Below are positions 3,695-43,898 of a stretch of 44,125 nt of DNA, in pieces. Location of the stretch: positions 1 through 44,125 of the IMG/VR virus record IMGVR_UViG_3300036985_001023; one strand, written 5' to 3'. Positions within the stretch are counted from its first letter, which is position 1. The number at the start of each line of letters is the position of its first letter. The DNA comes from a virus. A program made the translations under genes and the position numbers. A model generated the notes under the pieces. It was given only the letters and a program-made list of their open reading frames with translations, was not told the DNA's origin and searched no databases.

Positions 3695-4067
3695 ATATAT
3701 ATAAATATTTATTTAATAAAAATAATTCAGTATACACATTCTCTTGGTGTTTAACAACTAATCTATAACCTCCATTTTGTATTTTGTTACAAAATAAAAG
3801 ATATACACGTTTTCTATCTTCATAGTCAGGCCAAAATGTTGATATTAAAACATCAGACTTTTTATCTATAAAAGTATAATTTGTGTCTCGACCATTAGCG
3901 TCTATTACACGCATGATTGTATTAATAGCCTCGTTTTTTGTCTTAAAGACTGAGGAAAATACATCGTCTCCGTTATCTAATCGCACCGAGTCTAAACCCA
4001 CGAAGTTTTGTGCGAATGATGTTACCGATATTCCTAAGAATAACATCGTTGTTTTAAGTGTTCTCAT
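3681..4067 (-). CDS. Exported protein with signal peptide, 128 aa
   Basis: The N-terminus MRTLKTTMLFLGISVTSFAQ is a standard signal peptide (basic start, hydrophobic core, A-Q cleavage site typical of Bacteroidota), so the mature product of about 108 residues should sit in the periplasm. The rest has alternating hydrophobic residues and aromatic clusters (VYLLFCNKI, YRLVVKHQ, LYIYEPE), suggesting a beta-rich fold. No family recognised. An exported early phage protein could alter the host envelope, for example by superinfection exclusion, but nothing in the sequence proves this. Confidence 0.65.
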   Translation of the reverse strand: MRTLKTTMLFLGISVTSFAQNFVGLDSVRLDNGDDVFSSVFKTKNEAINTIMRVIDANGRDTNYTFIDKKSDVLISTFWPDYEDRKRVYLLFCNKIQNGGYRLVVKHQENVYTELFLLNKYLYIYEPE

Positions 4068-4084
4068 TTTATATTTAATTTAAG

Positions 4085-4252
4085 TTAAATTACTAATTCT
4101 CCAAATGCAATAATCATATAATACACAAGAAATATAGACGATACCATGGCTATTATCATTAATGGTGCCCCTATAAATCTGTACCTTGAAAGTCGTATTG
4201 ATAGCCAGCACGATAGCGTGAAGACTGTCATTAATATTAAAAAGTTTGTCAT
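4085..4252 (-). CDS. Small membrane protein, 55 aa
   Basis: 55 codons from ATG at 4252 to TAA. Two hydrophobic stretches (MTNFLILMTVFTLSCWLSI and APLMIIAMVSSIFLVYYMII) flank a short basic loop (RLSRYR), which fits a two-span inner-membrane protein. It begins 3 bp after the stop of the 89-aa gene. No family recognised. Confidence 0.55.
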   Translation of the reverse strand: MTNFLILMTVFTLSCWLSIRLSRYRFIGAPLMIIAMVSSIFLVYYMIIAFGELVI

Positions 4253-4255
4253 GTC

Positions 4256-4525
4256 TTAAGTTTTAGTGAATCTTGGACTGCACCCAAGAAGTATGCTAGG
4301 GCGGAAGCCCCTCTCTTTTATTTTGTAAATTTTAATCGTGTCCTCTACTATCTCATCGAATACCTTCTCCTCTATCTCGTAGTCCATGTATGGTATAACC
4401 TTCTGACCCATCTCGTTTATCTCTGCATTATTAAATAGCTCGTCAAACGATGCAGGTGGTATCGAGTATGCGTACAGCTGTCGGTAGCAGTGCATGATAG
4501 CTATGTCTATTTTTTTTTGCTTCAT
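4256..4525 (-). CDS. Hypothetical protein, 89 aa
   Basis: No family recognised. Soluble, with an acidic centre (YEIEEKVFDEIVEDTIKIYK) that should form helices. It is joined to the upstream 55-aa gene through a TAATG overlap, so the start at 4525 is well supported. Confidence 0.6.
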   Translation of the reverse strand: MKQKKIDIAIMHCYRQLYAYSIPPASFDELFNNAEINEMGQKVIPYMDYEIEEKVFDEIVEDTIKIYKIKERGFRPSILLGCSPRFTKT

Positions 4526-4692
4526 TACTCTAGTCCTAGTTTCTCGATTAGTATTAGTAGTGTCGTGTACTTGGTTTGTAGTCTCTGAGTACTTGGGTCT
4601 TTGTATCCAAACTCCAATACCATCTCCTCGTACTCACCCTTTAGCTCTAACATGTAGGCAAGGATTGTTGTTGTCATTTCTTCTTTGTTCAT
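4525..4692 (-). CDS. Small helical protein, 55 aa
   Basis: 55 codons from ATG at 4692 to TAA; the stop overlaps the next start as TAATG. The sequence (MLELKGEYEEMVLEFGYKD, then a second helix TTLLILIEKLGLE) looks like a helical hairpin. Met6 is an alternative start. No family recognised. Coupling to the following gene is the main support. Confidence 0.55.
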   Translation of the reverse strand: MNKEEMTTTILAYMLELKGEYEEMVLEFGYKDPSTQRLQTKYTTLLILIEKLGLE

Positions 4693-4703
4693 CTGTCTTT
4701 AGT

Positions 4704-4898
4704 TTAATAGTCCATACCATAATCTTTTAGGTCTAGTGGAGAAATATTTCCGCTCTCTAATATGTCAATTAGCCCGTGAAATTGTTTCGCTCCATCAATT
4801 CCCATGTCGTTCATATCTTTTATGAAACGATCTGCGTGTTTATTGCAGTACTCAACTGCATCATCTGTTGTCATCTTCTCTCGTTTTTTTATAGTCAA
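4704..4898 (-). CDS. Hypothetical protein, 64 aa (start uncertain)
   Basis: No family recognised. The core begins MTTDDAVEYCNKHADRFIKD. The first eight residues (MTIKKREK) overlap the upstream gene by 38 bp; starting at Met9 (position 4874) cuts the overlap to 14 bp and is equally likely. Helical and acidic. Confidence 0.5.
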   Translation of the reverse strand: MTIKKREKMTTDDAVEYCNKHADRFIKDMNDMGIDGAKQFHGLIDILESGNISPLDLKDYGMDY

Positions 4899-5061
4899 TA
4901 ATAAATCCTATCGCCACAATGATGTTCATGCCACATGACATTAGTATCTCGTGGATGTCAGCGTACACATTCATTGACAAGTGTACGTGACCCACCATCC
5001 AAAATGGTATGGATAAGTTTTGGCTCACCCATACCAATAGATACTTTATAAAGTGTTTCAA
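4861..5061 (-). CDS. Small membrane protein, 66 aa
   Basis: Two hydrophobic segments (about 4-25 and 41-55, the latter MNIIVAIGFIIDY) with a charged C-terminus (KKTREDDNR) suggest a membrane protein. It overlaps the exported-protein gene by 4 bp (ATGA at 5058-5061), which fixes the start. No family recognised. Confidence 0.5.
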   Translation of the reverse strand: MKHFIKYLLVWVSQNLSIPFWMVGHVHLSMNVYADIHEILMSCGMNIIVAIGFIIDYKKTREDDNR

Positions 5062-5510
5062 GGAGCAACCACGAAGTTATATGCAGTCGTGCTTCCAGAC
5101 ATCTTGAACTCATATGTTTCTGATTCACATGTAGTATCATTAATTCTTACCTTTAATGATGAAGCACTTTTAAAGCTAGATAGTATCTCATGTGTTGTCA
5201 AATTGTCTATAAAAAATAATGTCTCATTATCATCAGAAACATAACAATCTATAATATTATATTTTTGATATACCCCATTAACCAAGAAAGACATATCTAC
5301 ATTTACAATATCATCACATATGTATACACCGCCAATATAAAAAGATATTTCATTGTTATAATTCTCAAGTTTTAACCATTGATTTTTAGCAACATTAGTA
5401 TATGCAATCTTATATGGAGTATCAAATCCATTGTCTACTTTTTTGGTTACCCATTGTGCACTTGCTGTATAGCTTAGTGCTAATCCTATTGTCATTAATA
5501 AAGTTTTCAT
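5058..5510 (-). CDS. Exported protein with signal peptide, 150 aa
   Basis: MKTLLMTIGLALSYTASAQ is a typical signal peptide with an A-x-A-Q cleavage site, leaving about 131 residues in the periplasm. The mature part is rich in beta-prone segments (ISFYIGGVYICDD, SLKVRINDTTCES, TAYNFVVAP). It has three cysteines, of which two or more could form a disulphide outside the cytoplasm. It is the second exported early protein, after 3681-4067, without clear similarity between the mature parts. The leader AATTAAATAAATTATAATATG has no Shine-Dalgarno sequence. Confidence 0.65.
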   Translation of the reverse strand: MKTLLMTIGLALSYTASAQWVTKKVDNGFDTPYKIAYTNVAKNQWLKLENYNNEISFYIGGVYICDDIVNVDMSFLVNGVYQKYNIIDCYVSDDNETLFFIDNLTTHEILSSFKSASSLKVRINDTTCESETYEFKMSGSTTAYNFVVAP

Positions 5511-5577
5511 ATTATAATTTATTTAATTGCGCCTACTCTGTAAGGTTTTCAGCGTCCCCTTTGCACTCGTAATGAAT

Positions 5578-5763
5578 TTAGTTTGAATTAGTTTCCTGAA
5601 CCAAAAATTGAACGATTGATATCTCTATAGATATGATTGTAGCTCCTATGTCAGTAAAGAACATGTTGAAGTAAAAAGTAGCGTCTTCCTTAGAATTTGC
5701 CCATACCTTGTCTACAAATCTATCCTTCCCGAATACAGTGTAGTTGATCTTATATGCTCTCAT
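5578..5763 (-). CDS. Small conserved-type phage protein, 61 aa
   Basis: No named family. The pattern YKINYTVFGKDRFVDKVWAN followed by SKEDATFYF resembles small single-domain alpha-beta phage proteins in which a beta hairpin precedes a helix. Coupled to the upstream 44-aa gene by an ATGA overlap. A TATATTTG element (5777-5770) lies 6 bp before the start and could be a promoter or chance in the coding sequence. Confidence 0.55.
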   Translation of the reverse strand: MRAYKINYTVFGKDRFVDKVWANSKEDATFYFNMFFTDIGATIISIEISIVQFLVQETNSN

Positions 5764-5894
5764 AATTTACAAATATATATAATGTTATTACTATCGCCAA
5801 ACTTTTTTAAGGCCTCAGCATAATTCCTTGCGTCTACGTTCACTCCCGAACATAGACCCCTCGATATCTCGAAGCATATGTGGTATGTCGTCAT
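5760..5894 (-). CDS. Small phage protein, 44 aa
   Basis: 44 codons from ATG at 5894 to TGA. It has ATGA overlaps with the genes on both sides (5760-5763 and 5891-5894), which is strong support for a gene this short. The sequence THYICFEIS-like start, then DARNYAEALKKF, has the beta-hairpin-plus-helix plan of its 61-aa neighbour. No named family. Confidence 0.6.
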   Translation of the reverse strand: MTTYHICFEISRGLCSGVNVDARNYAEALKKFGDSNNIIYICKL

Positions 5895-6304
5895 AGCTCT
5901 AGCTCTATATGGTTAATAACTTGGTACTCGTAGTCAACGTCATTGTTGTACGGGTATGCTTGAATGATGTAAGTTAGCCACTCCTTCTCGTTCTTAAACT
6001 CATGCTTCTGCATGTAGTCAAAGTGTACGTCAAACTTGCCCTCGGCAAACTCGATGGTGTACCACTCGTCCAAATCATCAAACTGGATGGTCTTGGTCTC
6101 AACTCCGTAAGTCAAGTCGACATAGCGGAGGATAGGATTGATTTTTGCTTTCATTGGTTTATTGGTTAGATTAAATTTACTCATTATCTGCTCCTCTTCC
6201 ATTATTAAGGCGGAGCCGTATACATTCATTATTTCATTTGTAGTCATCTGTTCATCTTTCATTAATTGGCTGAATAGCCATTCAACTGCTGTCTGTTCTT
6301 TCAT
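5891..6304 (-). CDS. Hypothetical protein, 137 aa
   Basis: The first 45 residues (KEQTAVEWLFSQL, then a Met- and Glu-rich helix ending MEEEQIMSKF) match a widespread N-terminal module of small Bacteroidota phage proteins of unknown role. The rest (about 55-137) is an acidic alpha-beta domain with DLDEWYTIEFAEGKFDVHFD. The two parts may be a fusion. It is the first gene to the left of the iteron block at 6305-6648, so its transcription probably starts there. Confidence 0.6.
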   Translation of the reverse strand: MKEQTAVEWLFSQLMKDEQMTTNEIMNVYGSALIMEEEQIMSKFNLTNKPMKAKINPILRYVDLTYGVETKTIQFDDLDEWYTIEFAEGKFDVHFDYMQKHEFKNEKEWLTYIIQAYPYNNDVDYEYQVINHIELEL

Positions 6305-6648
6305 TTAGTGTTGGTTTTTAGTGATTAGTGTTGGTTTATGTTGATTTTATGTTGATTTGAAATTCTGTAGCCCTTGGTACTGCTAGGTTAGTGTTAGAAT
6401 GTTAATTTTTACCCTTCTATAGAGAAAAAAAAATAAATAATATATATATACAGTATATAGTATACTATACACTGCGTTATTTTAATTTCACGCTAGTTTT
6501 GTCTTCAAAATCAACATTCCGACACAAAGTCAATGGTAGTAAGGCTTTCAGAAAAAAAAATTAACACTAAATCAACACGGGTTAACACTAGTATTTGTTA
6601 AACGATTGATTAATAGGTTGTTAGATGTTTTGATTTCAACACTCACAA
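6305..6648. other. Intergenic iteron/palindrome block, candidate replication origin or control region
   Basis: 344 bp without a gene. On the left are repeats of the type T(A/G)TTG(A/G)TTT: TTAGTGTTGGTTT (6305, 6325) and ATGTTGATTT (6338, 6349), plus TTAGTGTTAG (6388). On the right, inverted copies appear: AAATCAACAT (6508), AAATCAACAC (6569), TTAACACTA (6561, 6582). Between them is an A/T-only tract (6425-6450) and a perfect 14-bp palindrome TATAGTATACTATA (6456-6469), extended by imperfect arms to 6451-6474. Iterons facing a melting-prone core are typical of replication origins. A strong leftward promoter with operator repeats is the main alternative. Confidence 0.45.
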
Positions 6649-7005
6649 TCATAGGTCGATTGAATGGCCGTTGTCAATGTTGAAGATGGCCTTCTGATTG
6701 TTAATCCTGCCCATCAAGATTGCGTCCAATAGATTGTCCATTACAATTGATACGTCTAGGTACAGCCATCCATCGTCTACCCATCCGCCTATGTTGTTCT
6801 CGGGTATAGATAGTTCGAGCCCGTGTATAGAGATGAATTCCTTGATTGTCTGCTCGATCGATTGTCTTGTGTCATCTATTGGTGTCTTGGAGCCTCCCTT
6901 CAGACTGACCGCATAGCCAGTTGTTGGTGATGTACCATTTGATAGATTGAATGTAGCTCCACCATTCTCGATGATGGAGTCCACGAAGTCATGTAGGTTG
7001 TTCAT
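6649..7005 (-). CDS. Conserved phage protein with NNIGGWVDDGWLYLDVS motif, 118 aa
   Basis: The segment NNIGGWVDDGWLYLDVSIVM (about 65-84), followed by AILMGRINNQKAIFNIDNG, matches a small protein common in phages and plasmids of many hosts, in which the aromatic W-x-D-G-x-x-Y-L-D-x-S strand-turn-strand is the hallmark. The N-terminal GGATFNLSNGTSPTTGYAVSLKGG also belongs to this family. Function unknown. It is the last gene of the small-gene array; its start lies 2 bp from the upstream stop, and it lacks the conserved linker motif. Confidence 0.65.
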   Translation of the reverse strand: MNNLHDFVDSIIENGGATFNLSNGTSPTTGYAVSLKGGSKTPIDDTRQSIEQTIKEFISIHGLELSIPENNIGGWVDDGWLYLDVSIVMDNLLDAILMGRINNQKAIFNIDNGHSIDL

Positions 7006-7007
7006 GG

Positions 7008-7217
7008 TTACTTAAGTTTAGTGGTTATTATTTCTACTCCTACACCTATAGCGTAAAATATCTCTTCGTTGATGTGCTCGTTATTAAACGCCATGTCTAG
7101 TGCTGACATTTTTTGTTTGTCAGTTAAGCTGTCGTCATCTACATCGTGGATGCTCCATAAATTGTCTACGTAATATCCTGCGTTACGTAGTACTTGCTTT
7201 GCTTGTTCTGTTGTCAT
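7008..7217 (-). CDS. Small conserved phage protein (TEQAKQVLRNAGYYVDNLW type), 69 aa
   Basis: The N-terminus TTEQAKQVLRNAGYYVDNLW followed by a short acidic DVDDD stretch and a C-terminal helix (ALDMAFNNEHINEEIFYAI) is the signature of a widespread small phage and mobile-element protein of unknown function. The start at 7217 is set by the conserved 12-nt linker AACCTAGAACTT between the upstream TAA and this ATG. Confidence 0.7.
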   Translation of the reverse strand: MTTEQAKQVLRNAGYYVDNLWSIHDVDDDSLTDKQKMSALDMAFNNEHINEEIFYAIGVGVEIITTKLK

Positions 7218-7229
7218 AAGTTCTAGGTT

Positions 7230-7418
7230 TTAGTTGGTTGTTAAAATTATTTCTGTTAGTATTGAATTAGTCTCAGCGTCATATAGACCTTCTGACATTT
7301 CGTTAACTTGATTTACATCGCTATCTTCGTTGTGTCTGTAAGATACTTCGATGGTTGATAAATCATATCCATCATCTATTAATGAATTTAATTTATCTAA
7401 TAATTCTTGTGCGTTCAT
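7230..7418 (-). CDS. Small acidic phage protein, 62 aa
   Basis: NAQELLDKLNSLIDDGYDL, then IEVSYRHNEDSDVNQV and YDAETNSILTEIILT, resembles a conserved family of short acidic phage proteins of unknown role (helix followed by beta strands). The start at 7418 is set by the linker AACCTAGAACTT, identical to that of the next gene. Confidence 0.65.
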   Translation of the reverse strand: MNAQELLDKLNSLIDDGYDLSTIEVSYRHNEDSDVNQVNEMSEGLYDAETNSILTEIILTTN

Positions 7419-7430
7419 AAGTTCTAGGTT

Positions 7431-7655
7431 TTAAAATGTTAGTTTATCGAATTCAGTGTACATGTCTGCATACTCCATAGGAAATCTATCCTTCAATGCT
7501 TGGAGTAAGATATCGTTGTCAAATTCCTCATACCCGTCTCGCTCTGCATTTACGATTGGTTGGATGACCTCAGCTATTTGGTCATCGTCTAGTGTTGTTA
7601 CTAGGTAGAAGTCCTCTTCTGCCCACGCTGTTGTGTTGATTCTAATTACTCTCAT
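7431..7655 (-). CDS. Small acidic phage protein (INTTAWAEEDFYL type), 74 aa
   Basis: RVIRINTTAWAEEDFYLVTTL, then IQPIVNAERDGYEEFDNDIL, matches a small family seen repeatedly in Bacteroidota phages. Function unknown. The start is preceded by AAAAACCTAGAACCTATG, a close copy of the array motif. Confidence 0.65.
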   Translation of the reverse strand: MRVIRINTTAWAEEDFYLVTTLDDDQIAEVIQPIVNAERDGYEEFDNDILLQALKDRFPMEYADMYTEFDKLTF

Positions 7656-7679
7656 AGGTTCTAGGTTTTTAAAGGTTAG

Positions 7680-7895
7680 TTACATTTCAATTCCACACTC
7701 CATTGCCGACATCTCGTCTATGTCCCCGTTAGGCATGATGATACCTCGGTCTATTAATAGCTTGGCCGTCCGTCCGTAGTGGCCTTGTAGACTCCATGCT
7801 GAGCCATCTTTTATTAGTTCAGCGAACAGGTACACCATACCTGCCCCGTCTAGCATACCACATTCGTATGCGATAATTTGATCAATCTTGTTCAT
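7680..7895 (-). CDS. Small phage protein with LQGHYGRTA motif, 71 aa
   Basis: The central SAWSLQGHYGRTAKLLIDRG is the hallmark of a very common small phage protein found across unrelated hosts, with an N-terminal IIAYECGMLDGAGMVYLFAELI helix pair. Function unknown. The start is set by AAAACCTATAAACTATG, a variant of the array motif. Confidence 0.7.
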   Translation of the reverse strand: MNKIDQIIAYECGMLDGAGMVYLFAELIKDGSAWSLQGHYGRTAKLLIDRGIIMPNGDIDEMSAMECGIEM

Positions 7896-7907
7896 AGTTT
7901 ATAGGTT

Positions 7908-8135
7908 TTAATAACTCCATAGAGTTAGGTTAGGGTTCTCTTTTATTCTGGCTTTAACTTTAACTATTAGCTTGTCCATAATAGCTATTGTCTTAGCTCC
8001 TTTGTATTCAGTGATTTCTCTGTTGGTCTTGCGTCTGTAGTAAGTGACATATACTTTCGTTCTGTCTTCTTTCAATACGCTTAACTCTGCTACTGCATCT
8101 GTGATGGTTACACATCCTATCCATATTCTGTCCAT
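7908..8135 (-). CDS. Hypothetical protein, 75 aa
   Basis: No family recognised. I place the start at 8135 (MDRIWIGCVTITDAVAEL) because the array motif AAAAACCTAGAACTTATG ends there. An open frame extends upstream to 8192, but that would run into the neighbour and ignore the motif. The product has a beta-strand start, then basic residues around YYRRKTNREITEYKG and a helix KLIVKVKARIKE. Confidence 0.6.
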   Translation of the reverse strand: MDRIWIGCVTITDAVAELSVLKEDRTKVYVTYYRRKTNREITEYKGAKTIAIMDKLIVKVKARIKENPNLTLWSY

Positions 8136-8148
8136 AAGTTCTAGGTTT

Positions 8149-8406
8149 TTAAAGTTCATACTCGTTTCCATCCTCGTCATAATAAACGTCATCGTCTATC
8201 TCTTCCCACTCTGTGTAATAATATTCTTCTTGCTCATATGCTTCGTTAAGTATGAATTCATCAGATAGACCTTCCATACCACCACGGCCTCTAAGCCAAT
8301 CAATTAAGTGTTTCTCATCAGAGAAGTATAATTCTCCATCTCCAACAACAAATCCTTCGTTCATGCCAATTCCTGTGGCATCACATTTTCTTGCATATCT
8401 TTCCAT
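8149..8406 (-). CDS. Very acidic small protein, 85 aa
   Basis: I place the start at 8406 (MERYARKCDATGIGMNEGFV) because the array motif AAACACTTAGAACTTATG ends there; the frame is open to 8448. The C-terminal third is extremely acidic (EQEEYYYTEWEEIDDDVYYD), which is common in DNA mimics and inhibitors of DNA-binding proteins. No family recognised; DNA mimicry is only a possibility. Confidence 0.6.
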   Translation of the reverse strand: MERYARKCDATGIGMNEGFVVGDGELYFSDEKHLIDWLRGRGGMEGLSDEFILNEAYEQEEYYYTEWEEIDDDVYYDEDGNEYEL

Positions 8407-8419
8407 AAGTTCTAAGTGT

Positions 8420-8629
8420 TTATTGGTTATCAAATTGTGCGTTCTCAATTAAAGTTAGTATTTGGTCATACAATTCTGTTACAAAACAACCACCATTGTT
8501 ACCGAGTCCAAATATGTAAGTGTTTTCGTTAGGTTTTTCGCCTTCGATATTTGATACTGATACTATATAGTTTATGTTTGCCATAAATACAGCTCCATTG
8601 GGTCTAGTTAATTGAATGAAATTTTTCAT
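8420..8629 (-). CDS. FlbD-like small protein, 69 aa
   Basis: KNFIQLTRPNGAVFMANINYIVSV followed by TYIFGLGNNGGCFVTELYDQILTLIE has the layout of the FlbD-like fold (LTR-x-NG, a strand with N-x-x-x-I, then V-x-E-x-x-x-x-I). Such proteins occur in phages without any link to flagella. Function unknown. The start follows AAAAACTTAGAACTTATG. Confidence 0.5.
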   Translation of the reverse strand: MKNFIQLTRPNGAVFMANINYIVSVSNIEGEKPNENTYIFGLGNNGGCFVTELYDQILTLIENAQFDNQ

Positions 8630-8656
8630 AAGTTCTAAGTTTTTAGTTAGTTAATA

Positions 8657-9148
8657 TTATCCTTTAGTAAATGCAATACCATAGTTTATGCTACGAATAG
8701 TCATCCATTCTCTTGCTTCTTTGGTAGTACCAATCATTACTTCTTCACCTGTAGCTAAATCATGGAATTTACCATACTCAATATCGAATACAGATGGATT
8801 CATTAGTTCACTATATATTCTATGGATGTCACTATGTTTATTGATGCAATCCATATCATTGTAAGTAAAACCATCCTTGGTTACAGGGCTCTTGTCTAGT
8901 CTAAAGAATCCTCCGTTGGTCATTGATGAGCTATAGCTGAAGCTAGTGAATAATCTAAGACCATCGTCTAGAGTATACTCAACAAAGTATCTATCGTATT
9001 GATACATATTATCTTTATCAACTTTGTAGAATATTACATTGCTGTATTTGTCTAGCATTCTTTTAATGTTGCTCTCCCATACCTGTGGATTGTAATTACG
9101 ACCATCGCTGTTGCGAATTTCATCTGCTGTTAAAATGTGTGCTCTCAT
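8657..9148 (-). CDS. Hypothetical protein, 163 aa
   Basis: The largest product of the small-gene array. No family recognised. The middle has beta-prone stretches (YFVEYTLDDGLRLFTSFSYSS, NGGFFRLDKSP). The end (ATGEEVMIGTTKEAREWM) looks like a short strand-helix unit. The start is set by AAACACTTAGAACTTATG, the same 13-nt linker as before 8406. Confidence 0.6.
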   Translation of the reverse strand: MRAHILTADEIRNSDGRNYNPQVWESNIKRMLDKYSNVIFYKVDKDNMYQYDRYFVEYTLDDGLRLFTSFSYSSSMTNGGFFRLDKSPVTKDGFTYNDMDCINKHSDIHRIYSELMNPSVFDIEYGKFHDLATGEEVMIGTTKEAREWMTIRSINYGIAFTKG

Positions 9149-9161
9149 AAGTTCTAAGTGT

Positions 9162-9518
9162 TTATTGGTTAATAAATTTAGCTGTGTAATCTCTATCTGT
9201 TATTGCTTTGTAGTTGTCAGTATCGAACGGGTTCTTAACTACGTTTCTGAACTCTCTACCATTAGGCATGCTGTATTCGATGACATATCCGTGTACAGGT
9301 GAATAGTTTACAAAGTATCCATCCCTGTCCGCTTGATTTCTGAACACCTGTACCTCGTCATTTTGTACAAGTAGCTGTACCTCTCTCATAGTAAAGTCTA
9401 CGAGGATTGTCTCGTGCTCTAGCACACACTCTAAGGTGATGCGATTGCCTACTATCTCGTGTACCTTATGGTCACTACCTTTCATGTCTCTGTGGTTTAC
9501 ATTTACGATTGCTCTCAT
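9162..9518 (-). CDS. Hypothetical protein, 118 aa
   Basis: No family recognised. Begins MRAIVNVNHRDMKG and is mostly beta-prone (RITLECVLEHETILVDFTM, GYVIEYSMPNG). It is the first gene downstream of the structured region 9542-9890, and its start follows AAAACCTAGAAACCATG. Expression probably depends on read-through of the terminator-like hairpin at 9542-9595. Confidence 0.6.
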   Translation of the reverse strand: MRAIVNVNHRDMKGSDHKVHEIVGNRITLECVLEHETILVDFTMREVQLLVQNDEVQVFRNQADRDGYFVNYSPVHGYVIEYSMPNGREFRNVVKNPFDTDNYKAITDRDYTAKFINQ

Positions 9519-9541
9519 GGTTTCTAGGTTTTAGTTAGTAT

Positions 9542-9595
9542 AAAAAAAAAGATTTTGTTGACACTTCCTCGTGAGTGTATTCCGATACAAAATCT
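9542..9595 (-). terminator. Terminator-like hairpin ahead of the small-gene array
   Basis: On the minus strand AGATTTTGT (9595-9587) pairs with ACAAAATCT (9558-9550), enclosing a second stem ACACT/AGTGT with loop CACGAGGA, and is followed by a run of T to 9542. The start of the 118-aa gene is only 24 nt further. This placement suits an attenuator, or the 3' end of the RNA from 9596-9890. Confidence 0.6.
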
Positions 9596-9890
9596 AATAA
9601 AAATCTTAAGCAATCGATAGGTGGTTTCAAATGTGTACTTCTTCCTTTGCTAGCCAACACATTCTAGATACTTTTTTTGGTTTGCATTAGTATCCATTGC
9701 AATCAATAATGATGGTACCATGCCCCATCACTAGGCATTATCTCTCTGCACTCAGTTGTAATACAATTACCTATGAACAGCATCACCTGTTTTATAGTAT
9801 TGTAAGAGGTTCCTTTTAAAATGGGGAATCGAACCCCATAACATTACCATCTTGCTTACTCCACTTTCAGCAATGGACGTTACGATATTA
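9596..9890 (-). ncRNA. Structured non-coding stretch with a tRNA T-arm
   Basis: 295 bp without a gene on either strand. The minus strand carries a perfect T-arm ATGGGG-TTCGATT-CCCCAT (9839-9821), preceded by a 5-bp hairpin TTGCT/AGCAA and by AGATGGT, which also occurs in the tRNA-like RNA at 1460-1513. No acceptor stem can be drawn. Further inverted repeats are TGATGG/CCATCA near 9720-9740, ATGCC/GGCAT, GATACT/AGTATC, and AATGTGT/ACACATT near 9630-9665. A possible promoter element TATGTTTG (9924-9917) lies upstream inside the preceding gene. It resembles one processed RNA ending at the terminator at 9542, but expression is unproven. Confidence 0.4.
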
Positions 9891-10133
9891 TTACAACTTC
9901 TCACCCTTGGTTTTTACAAACATACTCTTTTTAAATCTGATCAGATGACCCTCCTCGTACTTGAGCAGGTCTTCTAGCTTATCTCTATCAACGTCAATTA
10001 TTCCGTGTATAGGATGCTTGATATCGTTGATGCCCACAAAGTTAATGTTGCGGATTAATTGCTCTCTGATGGTTATCTCTCTGATGTATCCATCGGTCTT
10101 GTGGAATCCAATGTTGTTCATTCGCTCGTTCAT
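9891..10133 (-). CDS. Hypothetical protein, 80 aa
   Basis: No family recognised. Basic at the C-terminus (IRFKKSMFVKTKGEKL) with a central IDVDRDKLEDLLKYEEGH. The start at 10133 is 5 bp after the TAG of the 49-aa gene; that stop lies inside a degenerate copy of the array motif (AAATAGAAATTATG). Met5 is an alternative start. Confidence 0.55.
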   Translation of the reverse strand: MNERMNNIGFHKTDGYIREITIREQLIRNINFVGINDIKHPIHGIIDVDRDKLEDLLKYEEGHLIRFKKSMFVKTKGEKL

Positions 10134-10138
10134 AATTT

Positions 10139-10288
10139 CTATTTTTTAATAATGTTAAATACTCCATACTTGTGGCTTCCTTGAGCCATTAATTGATTTT
10201 TCTTCCAATAGCACAATGCCATATTGGGAAAGTAATAGGTCTCACATATAGTCGAGCCATTAATTACATATTGCAGTTGATATATCAT
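10139..10288 (-). CDS. Small conserved-type phage protein, 49 aa
   Basis: 49 codons from ATG at 10288 to TAG. IYQLQYVINGSTICETYY, then ALCYWKKNQLMAQGSHKYGV, then FNIIKK, follows the pattern of short phage proteins with a strand, an NG turn, a helix with Lys-Lys, a G-x-H turn and a final strand. Overlaps the preceding 31-codon gene as ATGA. Function unknown. Confidence 0.55.
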   Translation of the reverse strand: MIYQLQYVINGSTICETYYFPNMALCYWKKNQLMAQGSHKYGVFNIIKK

Positions 10289-10380
10289 GGCTTTGTATTT
10301 AAGCTAATAGTGACATATATAATCATAAATAATGATAAAATCATTAAGCAAACACCGATATATGTTGTTATATTATCCAT
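10285..10380 (-). CDS. Membrane peptide, 31 aa
   Basis: 31 codons, MDNITTYIGVCLMILSLFMI onward, a single hydrophobic span with a short basic tail. It ends in an ATGA overlap with the 49-aa gene, which is the chief reason to accept so short a frame. Leader is A-rich (AAAAAAAAAAGAAATGG). No family recognised. Confidence 0.4.
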   Translation of the reverse strand: MDNITTYIGVCLMILSLFMIIYVTISLNTKP

Positions 10381-10406
10381 TTCTTTTTTTTTTAGTTAAT
10401 TATTAA

Positions 10407-10616
10407 TTATTGACCGACAGCATAGCGTTCGTTAAATTGCTCTTGAGTTACCTCACTATTTTCGATGCCCAAGTTGAATGCTACCTCTGTTACGAATTCT
10501 CCGTTGTCGGGATTCAATATGCTGTCATTCCAATTACCTGTGCATGTTTCGGTTTCTTTGACCATAGCGCATCCGCTTAGGATGATTGTTGCTATTAAAA
10601 TTGATATCGCTTTCAT
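10407..10616 (-). CDS. Small lipoprotein, 69 aa
   Basis: MKAISILIATIILSGCAMV is a lipoprotein signal peptide with lipobox LSGC (Cys16), so the product is likely anchored to a membrane facing the periplasm. The mature part of 54 residues is acidic, with CTGNWNDSILNPDNGEF, and has no recognised family. Small phage lipoproteins often block superinfection; that role is possible but unsupported here. The leader TAAAACCTATG looks like a shortened array motif. Confidence 0.65.
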   Translation of the reverse strand: MKAISILIATIILSGCAMVKETETCTGNWNDSILNPDNGEFVTEVAFNLGIENSEVTQEQFNERYAVGQ

Positions 10617-10621
10617 AGGTT

Positions 10622-10771
10622 TTAGTTTTGATAAAACGCCTCGTCAAACAGGTAGTTATAACGATTAGTTATATAGTTAATAAAATTGTTTAAGTGACCC
10701 TCGTTTGAGAATTTTTTCTTCATAACGACCTGCTTTCCGCTGATGTTTATGAACGTCAGTACTACCTCCAT
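10622..10771 (-). CDS. Hypothetical small protein, 49 aa
   Basis: 49 codons from ATG at 10771 to TAA: a strand (MEVVLTFINISGKQVVMKKK) followed by a helix (GHLNNFINYITNRYNYLFDE). Overlaps the upstream 35-codon gene by 10 bp and stops 5 bp before the lipoprotein start. No named family. Confidence 0.5.
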   Translation of the reverse strand: MEVVLTFINISGKQVVMKKKFSNEGHLNNFINYITNRYNYLFDEAFYQN

Positions 10772-10869
10772 GCTCTTACTCTTAAGCGGTTAGTTCGTAC
10801 TAAGATTCCCTCGTTGTAGAAGCCCCAAATCTCGAAGGCTCCATCAATCATGATGATTTTACTAGTCAT
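10762..10869 (-). CDS. Hypothetical small protein, 35 aa
   Basis: 35 codons, beginning MTSKIIMIDGAFEIWGFYNE and ending with a basic tail (RLRVRAWR). The main support is a full array motif, AAAACCTAGAAACTATG, directly before the start, together with two RNA hairpins upstream (10895-10932). No family recognised. Confidence 0.5.
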   Translation of the reverse strand: MTSKIIMIDGAFEIWGFYNEGILVRTNRLRVRAWR

Positions 10870-10894
10870 AGTTTCTAGGTTTTAATTGGTTAAG

Positions 10895-10932
10895 ACGGCA
10901 TCTCGTGAATGCCGTTTCGACTATTAAAGTCG
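10895..10932 (-). promoter_or_regulatory. Twin hairpins in the leader of the 35-aa gene
   Basis: On the minus strand CGACT/AGTCG (5-nt loop) is followed by ACGGCAT-TCACGAG-ATGCCGT (7-bp stem). The loop TCACGAG also occurs in the hairpin at 9561-9578 with an unrelated stem; both hairpins lie 30-50 nt ahead of an array motif. This suggests a shared regulatory element recognised by its loop. Confidence 0.45.
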
Positions 10933-10946
10933 TCGTCAGTTAACCT

Positions 10947-11051
10947 TTAGATAGAGCAGTGAACACCGATTGTGATTACATTGTGGATGATGACTACTAC
11001 TAATAAGATAATACCGCTTAATAAAACGATAGGAGCTGTTACATTATTCAT
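10947..11051 (-). CDS. Membrane peptide, 34 aa
   Basis: 34 codons from ATG at 11051 to TAA (MNNVTAPIVLLSGIILLVVV onward), a single long hydrophobic span with a short polar end. No array motif before it and no overlap to confirm it, so it rests on composition alone. It would be the first gene of the leftward arm. Confidence 0.35.
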   Translation of the reverse strand: MNNVTAPIVLLSGIILLVVVIIHNVITIGVHCSI

Positions 11052-11072
11052 TTGATAGGTATTTGTTGGTTA

Positions 11073-11167
11073 GTGGTGCAGTAGGTATCGCTCCTATTAA
11101 TAGTCATTCTAACTGCACCTGTATGTTGTTACTTGCACCACGCTTATATAGATGGAATCGAACCATC
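11073..11167 (-). ncRNA. Two adjacent tRNA-like elements
   Basis: Minus-strand GATGG-TTCGATT-CCATC (11167-11151) is a perfect T-arm without a visible acceptor stem. Nine bases downstream, GTGGTGCA (11141-11134) pairs perfectly with TGCACCAC (11080-11073), closing a 69-nt element. Inside it, TAAC/GTTA could form a D-like arm and TAGG-AGCGATA-CCTA stands where a T-arm should be. The inner space is too short for an anticodon arm. It resembles the element at 1460-1513 in plan, less convincingly. It could be decayed tRNA genes. Confidence 0.35.
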
Positions 11168-12060
11168 ACAAGTATATTGTTTTGTTTTGGCGGGAGCGTT
11201 AACACTCGTTCTCCCCTATCGTTTTTGTCTTGCAATCACTCTCTATGCCTCACTCTTTAAACATCTATCTATGTATCACCATAGCCTACCGACATTAATA
11301 CCCTCGACATATACCATTTTGCATCGTGTACCTTTCCAATATCTAACATTTTTGATTTAAGCATTCATGTTCATTCTTAGTAGACTAATATTCCGTGCCC
11401 TTAATACTTTCATCTAGTCTATGTCATAATGACTGCTAGAACTAAGAGTCTTGTTGTTCATCCCCATGTGTGTCGCTTGTAAATCGCTGTTGGCTCGTTT
11501 GCCTTACATACTTATAATGCTATTTGTTTATAAATGTTACACTTTGTGTGAAAGTTTTTTTTCATTTGACAGGTTATTATTGTAAATATATGATGTATAT
11601 CGTTGTGTATCAACAAGTTACAGAGGTAAAAAATAATTGAAAAAAGTTTGTTATTTTTTTGTAACTGATGTTGTTACCCCCTCACTACAGCCGTGCGATT
11701 GGTTCAGATGCATTCCTTTTGGTCGGTCGACATGTCGACAAATCGATTGGTCTCAATGCGTTTCTATTTAACATAATGCAAATTATAGTACAACATTTTT
11801 GAGCGGTAGGTCGGTCGGCCTATCGGTCGGTCGGCTGATAGATGGTCATCAGAGGTAGCACAGCTGTAGTGGTAGCGGTGGCTGTAGTGGTATCGACTGC
11901 ACAGCGGAGGTGCACAGCTACGCCCTAGGAAAAGCTAGAAAATTCTGACTCAATAGACCAAAAGGTAGACCCCCCCCTTCGATTTCAAATCGTTTTCCCT
12001 TTGGGCTGGCTCACGTCAGATGGGCCTATTACCCAAAACCTACACATATCCAATCATATT
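11168..12060. other. Non-coding divide between left and right arms, with repeats and palindromes
   Basis: About 890 bp with no convincing gene. Visible items are: an imperfect inverted repeat at 11617-11665 (GTTACA/TGTAAC outside, AAAAAATAA/TTATTTTTT inside); a perfect palindrome GTCGACATGTCGAC (11726-11739); GGTCGGTCG repeats (11721, 11809, 11825); GCTGTAGTGGTA twice (11863, 11881); GCACAGC three times (11858, 11899, 11912); CGATTT/AAATCG near 11980; and TTTGGG/CCCAAA at 12000-12037. The stretch 11800-11930 is far richer in G and C than the rest. It probably holds the control signals for both arms. A plus-strand frame in 11063-11360 has no supporting features. Confidence 0.5.
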
Positions 12061-12066
12061 TTTTCA

Positions 12067-12074
12067 TATCTTTG
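12067..12074 (+). promoter_or_regulatory. Promoter -7 element TATCTTTG of the rightward arm
   Basis: Exact match to Bacteroidota TAnnTTTG, ending 4 bp before the ATG at 12079. Transcription would start at or very near the ATG, giving a leaderless or nearly leaderless mRNA. Confidence 0.6.
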
Positions 12075-12078
12075 TATC

Positions 12079-12216
12079 ATGGAAGTATTCATAGAAAACA
12101 GAATGTCATTTGGTTTAAACTTAGGTTTTGAATTATTCCAACCAGACGAACTGTATGACGACTATGAGCTAGAGATTAATTTGTTAATAATAAAAATAAT
12201 AATAGTATGGCACTAA
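12079..12216 (+). CDS. Small protein, 45 aa, first gene of the right arm
   Basis: 45 codons, MEVFIENRMSFGLNLGFELF onward, with an acidic centre (DELYDDYELE) and a hydrophobic end. I choose ATG 12079 over an upstream TTG at 12001 because a promoter element sits between them. It overlaps the 457-aa gene by 10 bp. No family recognised; it may be mainly a leader peptide coupling translation of the next gene. Confidence 0.45.
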   Translation: MEVFIENRMSFGLNLGFELFQPDELYDDYELEINLLIIKIIIVWH

Positions 12217-13580
12217 AATTTGGTAGAAGTACCGTTAAAACTACAAATCCACCAACAGATATTACTGTTAAACAAGAAAAACAGACACGTCCAAAGACTC
12301 CAGAGCGTATTGCTAAAGAGTCTAAGTACAACGCTGATTTAGAAGTATACAACAAATCTAAAGCTGATCAGTCTTCTGCTGAAGCTGAATACTCATCCAG
12401 TATGGGTAAGTATAACAAGAACATGAAGACGTACAATGAGATGCTTAAGACTGGAACTCCAATTCAAAGTCAGTGGGGAGCAAGTTTAAATAAAGAACAA
12501 CTGGCTAGGGTTAATGCTGCAAATCAGAGATCTAATCCAGGGATGCTATCATCTTCAAGAATTAGAGTACCAAAGGGAGGAGATCCAGAATCATTTACAA
12601 AAGATAGCGAAAATAATACAACTAAAGGACTTGGATTGCATTTACCTGAGTATGTAAAACCACAAGTTCCATCAAAGAGACAGACATCATCTGTTTCGGA
12701 GCCTGTTCAGGATTGGGAGGAAGACTATCTTCCAACAATGAAAGTTACAGGAATTTCAACTAAAAAAGGAAAGTTAATACCAGCAAAAGAGGATGTTACA
12801 TGGGAGGCTCCAGTAATGACAGAAAAAAAGGGATCTCGTATGGGATACACTAAAATAAAATCAGGCGGTGAAACTGGTGTTGAGGGAGCGGCACAGCCAT
12901 TTAATAAAAAGGCTGTTGGACCTAATAAAATAAAATACAACACTGAGCAACGAAGGTCTGCTGCATACTACGGAGACAACACTTCAACAGGTGAAAAAAT
13001 AACAGGTAAAACTGAATCAGAGTTGCGTCAGTTGAAGAAAGAGACAAGAGGAGAAGCTGGAAAAATGTTAAAAGAGGGTCGATTTGGAGATGCATTAACA
13101 ATAGGAAAGGACCTTTCTCAAATCAAAAAAGCAACTAGATATGCTAAAGATGCTGACTTGTCTGTAGGTTCAACAACAGGAGTTACTATGGAGGGTCAAG
13201 GGTCAAATCTACGTTACTTTACACCAGAGAAAACTAAAAAGGTTACTCAAGACGGTAGACAGGCAATGGGTGAGGGTGCCATGGCTGGATATAAAGAATT
13301 TCAGACTCAAGAAAAGGGGAAAGCTTTTAGAGCTCAGTCTGAAAACGCAGCCAATAGAAATAACATGTCAAAAAAACTTGCGGACGTTGCCACCGCAGCA
13401 GCTACACCAACTAGTTCTTTTTCTACATCCGCTATTACTAGAGGACAGATGAAGGATAAGTTTGCAACAGCAAACCCAACCGCTACTCCAAGACAGGTTC
13501 GGCAAGGAGTTCGGGCAGAAGCTGCTGCAAACAGACAGATAATTAAAGCTGTAGTATCAAAACAAAAGGAAAAACAATAA
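12207..13580 (+). CDS. Hypothetical low-complexity protein, 457 aa
   Basis: Rich in K, T, S, A, Q and G, with no cysteine that I can see and few large hydrophobic segments. Residues 10-80 (KTTNPPTDITVKQEKQTRPK and a helical KESKYNADLEVYNKSKADQS) look extended or coiled. The C-terminus is basic and alanine-rich. The composition fits a mostly unstructured virion or scaffold-related protein, possibly injected with DNA, but no family was recognised. A terminator follows at 13586. Confidence 0.55.
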   Translation: MALKFGRSTVKTTNPPTDITVKQEKQTRPKTPERIAKESKYNADLEVYNKSKADQSSAEAEYSSSMGKYNKNMKTYNEMLKTGTPIQSQWGASLNKEQLARVNAANQRSNPGMLSSSRIRVPKGGDPESFTKDSENNTTKGLGLHLPEYVKPQVPSKRQTSSVSEPVQDWEEDYLPTMKVTGISTKKGKLIPAKEDVTWEAPVMTEKKGSRMGYTKIKSGGETGVEGAAQPFNKKAVGPNKIKYNTEQRRSAAYYGDNTSTGEKITGKTESELRQLKKETRGEAGKMLKEGRFGDALTIGKDLSQIKKATRYAKDADLSVGSTTGVTMEGQGSNLRYFTPEKTKKVTQDGRQAMGEGAMAGYKEFQTQEKGKAFRAQSENAANRNNMSKKLADVATAAATPTSSFSTSAITRGQMKDKFATANPTATPRQVRQGVRAEAAANRQIIKAVVSKQKEKQ

Positions 13581-13654: not shown

Positions 13655-15214
13655 ATGATAGTAAAACAAGTCTATTTTGGCGATGAAGGCCAGAAAAAAT
13701 TAAAAAACGGCATTAAAATTATCGCTGGGGCGGTAAAAAGCACATTAGGTGCCAGAGGTCGGACGGTATTAATAGAGTCAGAGAACCATGTAGGTGGTAT
13801 CACCGTAACAAAGGACGGTGTGACGGTTGCAAAGTCGATCAACCTGTACGACCCGACCGAGAACTTGGCCGTTATGATGATGCGTCAGGCTGCTGACAAG
13901 ACATCCACCGTTGCTGGTGACGGTACGACCACGTCAATCGTGTTGGCAGAGGCTATAATCAATGCGGCAGACGAGCACGTTGAGTCAAACACCAACGTGA
14001 TAGAGGTGATACGTGAGATCAACGACATAACGGCATCTGTTGTGGCTAGACTTGGCAAGATGAGCAAGAAGGTCAGCGGCAAGAAGCTATATGACGTGGC
14101 ATCGATCAGTGCAAACAACGACAAGCAGATCGGCAAGATGATATCCGATGCATTCAACGAGGTTGACATGGTTACCGTGGAGAACAGCATGAATTCTGAG
14201 ACTCATGTAGAGATTATTAGTGGCATGAAGATAGACCGTGGCTACACGTCTAAGTACTTCATCAACGACCACAAGAAGCAGGAGTGTGTGTTAGACAATC
14301 CATACGTACTGATCACAGATCACGAGATAAACAACCTATCAAACCTAGAGTCTATACTTGCACCAATTGTTAGCCAAGGAAGGTCGTTATTGATCATAGG
14401 CACGCTTGGCCAGAACGCAGTGAATACATTAAACGTGAACGTAGCACAGGGCAAGATTAAGGCGTGCAACATTATACCACCATCGTTTGGATATAGGAAG
14501 AAGGATCTGCTAGAGGACCTGGCCGTTGCGCTTGGCGGTACGTACCTATCTGAGGACACTGGAGACGACTTAACGCTTATTTCTATGTCTGACCTAGGAA
14601 GGGCATCTAAGGTCGTTGTGAAGAAGAATATGACGGTATTTATGAACACATCAGAGATGAAGGATGCTATCGACATGAGGGTAGCTGACCTGAAGCACCA
14701 GGTGTGGGAGACCACAGACGCAAACGACAGAGAGTTCTTAAAGGAAAGGATTGCAAACATATCTGGAGGTGTTGGCGTTATATATGTTGGTGCACTTAGT
14801 GACATCGAGCAAAAGGAGAAGAGGGACAGAATCGATGACGCTGTGTGTGCTGTGATGGCTGCGATGGAGGATGGGATACTTCCTGGAGGAGGTGTTGCAC
14901 TATTGAACTGTTTAGACTTGGTGATGGGCGACAGCATAGCTCAGAACATAATGTTCGATACGTTGAGCGCACCATTTGATCAGATACTTATAAATGCAGG
15001 CAAGGACCCACATGCTATTAAGCTAGAGTTGGCAGGCATGGGCGAGGGCTATGACGTAAAGAACGAGGTGTACGGTAACATGATGAAGATGGGGATTATA
15101 GATCCAACGAAGGTTACTAAGAACGCACTGCTTAACGCTGTGTCTGTGGCAACAACAATTATGAGTACAAACGCAATTATAACAAACATAAGAGACTATG
15201 AAGGTTCTAAATAA
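13655..15214 (+). CDS. groEL: Chaperonin GroEL (phage-encoded)
   Basis: 519 residues, against about 545 for bacterial GroEL. It would assemble into an ATP-driven folding chamber in the cytoplasm. Conserved features are TLGARGRTV (30-38), TKDGVTVAK (52-60), the ATP-binding GDGTTT (88-93, Asp89 equivalent to E. coli Asp87), and the catalytic aspartate at 395 in DDAVCAVMAAMEDGILPGGG. The usual Gly-Met-rich C-terminal tail is missing: the protein ends RDYEGSK. The coding sequence is richer in G and C than the structural genes, which may mean a separate origin. groES follows, overlapping by 17 bp, so the gene order is reversed from bacteria. It probably folds phage structural proteins. Confidence 0.97.
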   Translation: MIVKQVYFGDEGQKKLKNGIKIIAGAVKSTLGARGRTVLIESENHVGGITVTKDGVTVAKSINLYDPTENLAVMMMRQAADKTSTVAGDGTTTSIVLAEAIINAADEHVESNTNVIEVIREINDITASVVARLGKMSKKVSGKKLYDVASISANNDKQIGKMISDAFNEVDMVTVENSMNSETHVEIISGMKIDRGYTSKYFINDHKKQECVLDNPYVLITDHEINNLSNLESILAPIVSQGRSLLIIGTLGQNAVNTLNVNVAQGKIKACNIIPPSFGYRKKDLLEDLAVALGGTYLSEDTGDDLTLISMSDLGRASKVVVKKNMTVFMNTSEMKDAIDMRVADLKHQVWETTDANDREFLKERIANISGGVGVIYVGALSDIEQKEKRDRIDDAVCAVMAAMEDGILPGGGVALLNCLDLVMGDSIAQNIMFDTLSAPFDQILINAGKDPHAIKLELAGMGEGYDVKNEVYGNMMKMGIIDPTKVTKNALLNAVSVATTIMSTNAIITNIRDYEGSK

Positions 15215-15455
15215 ATATATTATCGTTGATAAATTAGTAGAAAAAAAGACCACCTCGAGTGGTCTTATAATGAGCGGAGATGAGTACAAGGACATGCGCT
15301 ACCAGTACGGTAATGTCATAAACTTTGGCCCTTTAGTTTCTGGTATGGAGATAGGGGACAAGATAATGTTCGACAGGGTGTCTGGTCACGAGGTCATTAT
15401 AGAGAACGATAGGATGTTCATTCTTCAAGAGAAGGATGTTGTTTGTGTTCTTTAG
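15198..15455 (+). CDS. groES: Co-chaperonin GroES (phage-encoded)
   Basis: 85 residues, slightly shorter than the bacterial 95-97. KYIIVDKL begins the barrel. The mobile loop at about 15-28 carries SGLIM in place of the GGIVL that docks on GroEL. GNVINFGPLVSGMEIGDKIM matches the second half of the barrel, and the end (ILQEKDVVCVL) matches the final strand. It caps the GroEL chamber. The start lies inside the groEL 3' end, so the pair is co-translated. Its 3' end overlaps by 38 bp the end of a leftward gene. Confidence 0.92.
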   Translation: MKVLNKYIIVDKLVEKKTTSSGLIMSGDEYKDMRYQYGNVINFGPLVSGMEIGDKIMFDRVSGHEVIIENDRMFILQEKDVVCVL

Positions 15456-42146: not shown

Positions 42147-43066
42147 TGAAGAGACTAAGATTTTTATCTGCACAGCCAGCAATAGATTATTATTCTTGGC
42201 AGGTAGAGATTTATATACATAACTTTATAAGTCTTGGTTATAAAGAAAACCATATAGATATTGTTGCAGGCTATCAAGAAGACATACCTGAGTCATGGAT
42301 AAAGCTACAAAAAAGATTTCCAAAGGCTAGGTTTTTTTTCTATGAAGACACTATGGGAGAGTGTAAATATCTTCCAGCAATACAGGGTCATTTATTGAAA
42401 AAACATTTTAAAGCCCATCCATATCTAAAGAGAGACGCTATTTTCTTTCATGATGCTGATTTTTTATTTACTAAATATTTTGATTTCTCAAAGTTTTTAC
42501 ATGATGACATTTGGTACTTCTCTGATACCATAAGCTATATAGGATACGATTACATAATGAGCAAGGGCGAGGAGGTCTTAGATGCTATGTGCGAAACAGT
42601 CGGTATAGATAAAAATGTTATCAAGAGCAATCAGAAGAACAGCGGTGGAGCACAGAAGTTATTTAAAAATATAGACCATGAGTACTGGGAGCAAGTGGAA
42701 GAATGCTCTTTAAAACTGTACGATGTTTTAATAAATAAGCAACATGTAAAGAAGGAGGGAGACCCACATGGAATACAGGCATGGACGGCAAGCATGTGGG
42801 CAGAGCTTTGGATGGGATGGAAGCTAGGACATAGCGTTGTTGTTCCTAGTGAGTTTGATTTTTGTTGGGCCACGTGCCCTATATCAAGATGGGATAGTGT
42901 CAATTTTTTTCATAACGCAGGCGTAATGAATGATAAAATGGGAATGTTTTGTAAGGCAAAGTACATGGACAAGTATCCGTTCAAAGAAGACTTGAATGTT
43001 GTTCCAGAAAGGTGCTCTTATATGTACTATAAACTATTAAAATCTATTGATACTTGTCTTGAGTAA
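42146..43066 (+). CDS. Glycosyltransferase-like protein, 306 aa
   Basis: KRLRFLSAQPAIDYYSWQVE at the start, then DAIFFHDADFLFTKY (97-111) with a D-x-D-like metal site (Asp103, Asp105), then a conserved-looking NSGGAQ, IQAWTASMWAELWMGWKLGH and FFHNAGVMNDKMG. This layout suits a GT-A type glycosyltransferase. It overlaps the adhesin stop as TAATG, so it may modify that protein's threonine runs. No family assigned with certainty; the donor sugar cannot be told. Confidence 0.5.
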   Translation: MKRLRFLSAQPAIDYYSWQVEIYIHNFISLGYKENHIDIVAGYQEDIPESWIKLQKRFPKARFFFYEDTMGECKYLPAIQGHLLKKHFKAHPYLKRDAIFFHDADFLFTKYFDFSKFLHDDIWYFSDTISYIGYDYIMSKGEEVLDAMCETVGIDKNVIKSNQKNSGGAQKLFKNIDHEYWEQVEECSLKLYDVLINKQHVKKEGDPHGIQAWTASMWAELWMGWKLGHSVVVPSEFDFCWATCPISRWDSVNFFHNAGVMNDKMGMFCKAKYMDKYPFKEDLNVVPERCSYMYYKLLKSIDTCLE

Positions 43067-43074
43067 TTTTTTTG

Positions 43075-43082
43075 TAAATTTG
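43075..43082 (+). promoter_or_regulatory. Promoter -7 element TAAATTTG
   Basis: Exact TAnnTTTG ending 4 bp before ATG 43087, with TTG about 18 bp upstream as a possible -33 element. Nearly leaderless transcript implied. Confidence 0.6.
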
Positions 43083-43086
43083 TACT

Positions 43087-43890: not shown

Positions 43891-43895
43891 ATTTG
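43888..43895 (+). promoter_or_regulatory. Promoter -7 element TAAATTTG before the GNAT-like gene
   Basis: Exact TAnnTTTG overlapping the previous stop and ending 3 bp before ATG 43899. It has the same context (GTAAATTTG) as the element at 43075. Confidence 0.5.
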
Positions 43896-43898
43896 TTT

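Follow-up and report, generated by a model that had tools for sequence, protein, structure and literature searches.

What do the starts of about a dozen small, unrelated phage genes have in common, and why has it been kept? The question is raised by the virus record IMGVR_UViG_3300036985_001023, which was analysed whole (44,125 bases, the window) and belongs to a phage of flavobacteria, that is, of Bacteroidota that are blind to the Shine-Dalgarno (SD) sequence. Its plus strand encodes the terminase, the portal and other virion proteins, as protein scans show, and the small genes lie on the minus strand. An earlier note had pointed to a motif, here called the tag, that directly precedes the starts of an array of these small genes. 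The best explanation, to which we give a probability of roughly 60%, is that the tag serves as a portable leader for translation initiation, with stop and start combined, and doubles as the homology joint of single-gene cassettes.

We searched the window with the motif AAAACCTAGAACTTATG, allowing up to three mismatches. There are a total of 11 matches to AAAACCTAGAACTT-ATG, each at the start of a small gene on the minus strand from 7217 to 10869 (Table 1), as compared to a mean of 0.35 and a maximum of 3 in dinucleotide shuffles. All ten starts that had been listed as carrying the motif were recovered, and the degenerate copy proposed at 10133 is genuine (AAAAAATAGAAATT, 3 mismatches). The copy proposed at 10616 is weaker, reading CAAAACTAAAACCT with TAAAA in place of the core TAGAA; it has probably decayed from a full copy, because the matching site in contig G017 reads CAAAACTAGAACCT with TAGAA intact. 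The tagged window proteins all fall into different families (clustering at E<1e-4), in agreement with the claim that they are not similar, and a clear known domain was recognised only in the product of the 7895 gene (DUF7417, E=4e-20). None of the other window genes checked has TAGAA at −8, as expected if the motif is absent elsewhere in the window. The tandem arrangement of small genes could mean that they are duplicates and the leader a relic of duplication; with every tagged protein in a different family and the sequences diverging directly after the ATG, the chance of this is close to negligible.

In public viral contigs the exact 17-mer occurs in 35 stretches, and several of these have 2–5 copies. 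We scanned 31 relatives, found via the protein of the 7655 gene, with a profile of the 14 bases before the ATG that was built from the window itself and left the ATG unscored. Of 150 strong matches, 125 are followed directly by ATG and 124 of these by an open frame. A reversed control yielded 30 matches, comparable to the 25 strong matches without ATG, so that the excess copies all lie at gene starts. The earlier note had named equal frequency away from gene starts in related genomes as an observation that would count against it; the relatives do not show this, and its reading stands on this point. Across the window and the relatives, the tag precedes 61 protein families. The contigs may be incomplete, near-duplicates were culled manually, families were clustered at one BLAST threshold, and the loci have genes in common, so the sites are not fully independent.

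The consensus of 131 non-identical sites is AAAACCTAGAA (positions are counted back from the ATG). Positions −14 to −11 are A in 83–97% of sites, −10 and −9 are mostly C, and −8 to −4 read TAGAA in 95–99%, with G at −6 in 95%. Position −3 is A in 51% and C in 48%, −2 and −1 are variable, G never occurs from −3 to −1, and the second codon is A-rich. Upstream of the T at −15 is a weaker part of the tag, AACCAA, and the region upstream of the tag is not conserved in the 131-site profile. The tag carries stops in two frames. Among 130 sites in the window and relatives, the stop of the upstream gene is at −15 in 40, at −16 in 10, at −17 in 3 and at −14 in 2, and in 17 sites it is the tag's own TAG at −8. 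Thus 72 of the 130 upstream stops occur within 17 nucleotides of the ATG and the gaps are mostly tight, which bears out the statement that the motif often fills the stop-to-start gap.

The core is conserved above synonymous sites. Among orthologs of 12 gene families (sites mostly picked by motif score), identity is 0.88 at −14 to −4 and 0.98 within TAGAA, as compared to 0.76 at third positions of unchanged codons, 0.64 at −3 to −1, and 0.37 at −40 to −21, where the neighbour gene often differs between orthologs.

A structured RNA was rejected for lack of an Rfam match in window positions 6900–12300, for weak folding, and because a tRNA search found none. RNA structure around tagged starts is as weak as at other minus-strand starts of the phage, and a stem of 7 or more occurs at 14 of the 131 tag sites (6.75 in shuffles). 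An element repeated before each gene might also be a promoter, each gene being transcribed separately. This is very improbable: a scan for the Bacteroidota TAnnTTTG (−7) box found none before individual array genes, the sole two on that strand lying inside one coding region (10044 and 9924), the upstream sequence is unconserved, and zero spacing to the ATG would give leaderless RNAs.

Part of the tag resembles what the host uses. In 334 Flavobacterium starts, AAAA peaks at −14 (34 as compared to a background of 12), and starts of F. johnsoniae have the same A region, linked there to translation (Baez et al. 2019, PMC6847099). TAGAA at −8 is rare in the host (2/334 starts), and the tag was rejected as a host gene signal on this ground. 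Extended pairing with the initiator tRNA (UUAUG) was rejected because −3 to −1 vary. The tag lacks the complementarity to CCUCC of the 16S ribosomal RNA at about −12 to −6 that marks an SD sequence, and had correctly been described as something else. A second SD-type interaction, in which TAGAA(A) pairs with the last bases of the flavobacterial 16S rRNA just past the sequestered anti-SD, is suggested by the end of the Flavobacterium 16S gene, CACCTCCTTTCTAGAG, where TTCTA is complementary to the core in all ten copies read; a first 16S probe in metagenome-assembled genomes had given no match. We consider such pairing quite improbable. It would involve only 4–6 base pairs, the longest complement of the tag to the whole 16S is no better than that of shuffled tags, the mature 3' end may not extend to the A, −3 is about equally A or C, and a core at −8 to −4 is too close to the AUG for normal tail geometry.

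The second property of the tag is that genes come and go between its copies. The array gene orders are mosaic, though the terminases of G017 and G014 are 98–99% identical to that of the window. We found approximately 25 distinct cases in which A-tag-B of one phage corresponds to A-tag-X-tag-B in another, where X stands for one or two genes. The clearest case is that of loci L055 and L048, with identities of 100% for gene A and 96% for gene B and no difference in sequence through the first tag. Across all locus pairs, 34% of tagged adjacencies are kept as compared to 79% of untagged ones, and untagged genes, such as those of families 3, 10 and 8, mostly keep behind fixed partners. Cultured elemoviruses of Flavobacterium sp. 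BAL314 have the same kind of array, located upstream of an annealing-protein and exonuclease pair; its leaders are different, AACTAAAATTTATACATT-ATG at some starts, and single-gene insertions at starts differ between isolates.

These observations raise the alternative that the likeness of the copies is kept by cassette recombination alone and that the role of the tag in translation is only to supply a stop and an ATG. Motif-bounded gain and loss and the more frequent breakage of tagged joints agree with it, as does a gene that is with or without the tag depending on its neighbour, and a recombination-type exonuclease gene lies downstream on the same strand (2034–2804). A joint of this kind does not explain why conservation is uneven, 0.98 in TAGAA and 0.64 at −3 to −1, or why the A-box coincides with that of the host. 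More distant phages bear on the same point.

Six loci (L177, L201, L200, L179, L193 and L210) came to light through a single exact copy of the tag, their other starts being unselected, and at these other starts TAGAA again occurs at −8 while the upstream bases differ. In L210, 8 of 40 starts have TAGAA at −8 (about 0.002 expected per position), and a promoter-like sequence precedes a TAGAA leader. L315 and L316, found by gene similarity only, have six TAGAA starts each (6/29 in L315). L371 and L423 exhibit a dialect, AAAACAATTAGAAnn-ATG, one base closer to the start codon at many starts, and two more motif-bounded insertions of genes were seen there. The terminase of the L371 record is 71% identical to that of the window, as compared to 70% for the L179 and L190 records, 49% for L315 and 25% for L193; no terminase was found in the L210 record. 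G001–G003 are close by terminase and have at most one TAGAA start, and these 37–41 kb contigs may lack the array. Leaders without TAGAA occur in G015 (TTAAAACAAGTAA shortly before the ATG, three copies) and in G022 (CTAAACGAC-ATG, three copies). A megablast of the structural region against phage records gave no match. As the dialects have TAGAA in common but not the rest, there is little homology between them, and with the promoter-like sequence before the L210 leader this leaves recombination alone an outside chance that we regard as unlikely.

We also tentatively suggest, as a possibility that we would rate well short of even, that TAGAA two or three bases before the ATG serves as an initiation signal in its own right. 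The SD-blind Bacteroidota ribosome, or a phage factor located in the mRNA exit channel, would read it; several phage lineages would use it in the form of dialects, and it would have spread as the joint of swappable single-gene cassettes. A signal of the L210 gene family across phages was rejected, TAGAA not being enriched in its 51 relatives.

The tag might instead be the site of a phage regulator of early mRNAs, a translational repressor or an endoribonuclease comparable to T4 RegA or RegB, that switches the gene set together. Such a regulon would be expected to look like this, with a non-SD core within the initiation regions of a single gene set and none at the structural genes. No candidate regulator was identified and the presence of the tag follows cassette neighbours rather than gene identity alone, which leaves only a small likelihood for this alternative.

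Under the explanation that we prefer, the tag would act as an initiation leader for small accessory genes on a presumed polycistronic phage mRNA. It would provide a stop for the upstream gene (TAA at −15/−16, or its own TAG at −8), an A-box at −14 to −11, where flavobacterial genes favour A too, and the phage-specific core TAGAA at −8 to −4, followed by three freer bases that are never G and the ATG. As stop and start lie together in about 17–25 shared bases, genes with these ends can be linked in any combination. Recombination between the homologous copies, in co-infecting phages or within one genome, would then add, remove and reorder single-gene cassettes with expression intact, and ribosomes that have just finished the preceding gene perhaps help initiation at the tag. 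Position and conservation are what suggest that the tag raises or sets initiation, fed by upstream termination. The earlier note had offered an initiation signal used with a modified ribosome or a phage factor, or else a homology boundary for swapping small genes. The fixed position, the conserved core and the A-box at the host position argue for the first part, and the motif-bounded gain and loss for the second; these seem to be two aspects of a single element. There is no support for a modified ribosome or a phage factor: no ribosomal-protein homolog or bS21-like factor was recognised among the window proteins scanned, some small open reading frames being outside the scan.

Several observations weigh against this explanation. 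Per distinct adjacency the effect of the tag is only modest, 27% of tagged and 46% of untagged adjacencies being kept (permutation p=0.034), and gain or loss of a gene at a tag is no proof of a crossover within it, so that the crossover site we propose may lie elsewhere. F. johnsoniae favours A at −6 and −3 (PMC6847099), where the tag has G and often C. The choice of sites by motif score inflates their conservation; when all 22 distinct orthologs of the 7655 gene are taken without such selection, 14 have TAGAA at −8. Among those that lack it are four loci where the gene is behind family 9 or shares the leader of family 9, and the 7655-family gene has no TAGAA when behind family 9 in L045, L050, L052 and L057. 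The core is therefore dispensable for at least one gene and the tag not strictly required for expression.

Among known systems, the tag appears nearest in kind to the Start-Associated Sequences (SAS) of cluster K mycobacteriophages in position and gene-set behaviour, and to the PeSL elements of T4-type phages in shuffling. SAS, GGGATAGGAGCCC, contain an SD core, are located 3–7 bp from the ATG, mostly after gaps >50 bp, and their function is unproven (Pope et al. 2011, PMC3203893). Both are short asymmetric repeats that keep to one orientation and stand at the starts of many small genes that are unrelated and not part of the structural module, both vary between relatives, and in both the upstream stop can fall inside. 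Unlike SAS, the tag has neither an SD nor the GGGATAGGAGCCC consensus, its spacing to the ATG is exact, its gaps are mostly tight, and there is direct evidence of motif-bounded gene exchange. PeSL combine an early promoter with a stem-loop, as described in an article that cites the original reports (Arbiol 2010, Comeau 2014; cited in PMC4503421). As far as that description goes, both are repeated regulatory elements between small genes of a hyper-variable region and tied to cassette shuffling, which at the tag is seen between close relatives; the tag differs in having no TAnnTTTG box per tagged gene, and a hairpin accompanies a minority of its copies. It shares with the Kozak-like, A-rich initiation regions of F. 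johnsoniae (Baez et al. 2019, PMC6847099) the A-rich −14 to −11 and the weak structure at the start, and differs in the TAGAA core, rare at host starts, and in G replacing A at −6. Flavobacteriales rpsU has an extended SD of up to 13 pairs (McNutt et al. 2023, PMC9976891) and is likewise a special initiation signal against an SD-blind background, whereas the tag has no SD. No earlier description of this tag was found in the open-licence literature searched. Lambdoid phages have boundary or linker sequences, short and conserved, at module borders, which can guide recombination; the tag, by comparison, is a single repeated sequence that links individual genes and takes in the start region.

The coordinates of the tag copies and associated features are collected in Table 1. 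Families 2 and 3 (the 10869-type gene and the gene at 10622–10771) are a fixed two-gene cassette, and in family 11 the tag occurs in 4 of 8 members.

Table 1. Tag copies and associated features in the window (mismatches relative to AAAACCTAGAACTT-ATG)
Feature	Position	Strand	Sequence or remark
Leader and ATG of gene 7008-7217	7215..7231	-	AAAACCTAGAACTT-ATG, 0 mismatches; upstream stop TAA at −15
Leader and ATG of gene 7230-7418	7416..7432	-	AAAACCTAGAACTT-ATG, 0 mismatches
Leader and ATG of gene 7431-7655	7653..7669	-	AAAACCTAGAACCT-ATG, 1 mismatch
Leader and ATG of gene 7680-7895 (DUF7417)	7893..7909	-	AAAACCTATAAACT-ATG, 3 mismatches
Leader and ATG of gene 7908-8135	8133..8149	-	AAAACCTAGAACTT-ATG, 0 mismatches
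Leader and ATG of gene 8149-8406	8404..8420	-	AACACTTAGAACTT-ATG, 2 mismatches
Leader and ATG of gene 8420-8629	8627..8643	-	AAAACTTAGAACTT-ATG, 1 mismatch
Leader and ATG of gene 8657-9148	9146..9162	-	AACACTTAGAACTT-ATG, 2 mismatches
Leader and ATG of gene 9162-9518	9516..9532	-	AAAACCTAGAAACC-ATG, 3 mismatches
Leader and ATG of gene 9891-10133	10131..10147	-	AAAAAATAGAAATT-ATG, 3 mismatches
Probably decayed leader and ATG of gene 10407-10616	10614..10630	-	CAAAACTAAAACCT-ATG; G017 counterpart has intact TAGAA
Leader and ATG of 35-amino-acid gene 10762-10869	10867..10883	-	AAAACCTAGAAACT-ATG, 2 mismatches
Hairpin	10895..10915	-	7-bp stem ACGGCAT...ATGCCGT, then CTTAACCAAT and leader of 10869 gene
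Hyper-variable array, mostly single-gene cassettes joined by the tag	7008..10869	-	From gene families, gain/loss and joint comparison
Untagged gene, family 3	10622..10771	-	Follows 10869-type gene (family 2) wherever that adjacency was compared pairwise
Next gene, family 11	6649..7005	-	Start at 7005; related but different leader TAAACTTAAGTAACC-ATG

The context of the hairpin recurs in relatives with a compensated stem (ACAGCAC...GTGCTGT), indicating a subset of joints with an extra stem-loop. The gene with the probably decayed leader encodes a small, lipoprotein-like protein that weakly matches Cor superinfection exclusion proteins, over residues 1–28 only (E=5e-5). Within the array, ~350 bases at 9535–9890 hold no clear gene; on the minus strand they contain a word resembling a tRNA T-arm, GGGGTTCGATTCCCC, and a similar word occurs near 11150, with no tRNA or Rfam family found. 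Genes for GroEL-like (Cpn60, 519 amino acids) and GroES-like (85 amino acids) proteins adjoin at 13655–15455 on the plus strand. L371 has, at 3845–10553, an array of >10 small genes of a second phage lineage, most of them behind AAAACAATTAGAAnn-ATG. L243 (43746–50000) and L282 (MW202828.1) exhibit a perfect 16-bp palindrome, GTGTCGTTAACGACAC, in ~14 copies, mostly right before small genes; the phage with these palindromes encodes an annotated repressor (40229–40705), and they look like a stoperator-type operator set distinct from the tag. L252 (G023 42800–44100) contains a long repeat with a 51-base period, AACACAGCAA....

SAS-type sequences have been without a proven mechanism since 2011. The tag offers a concrete account of how single accessory genes could be traded without loss of expression, as the joint itself holds stop and start. 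Bacteroidota choose start codons without Shine-Dalgarno pairing, and the tag is a compact natural test sequence for that choice in this phylum, with dialects that let the core be told apart from the rest.

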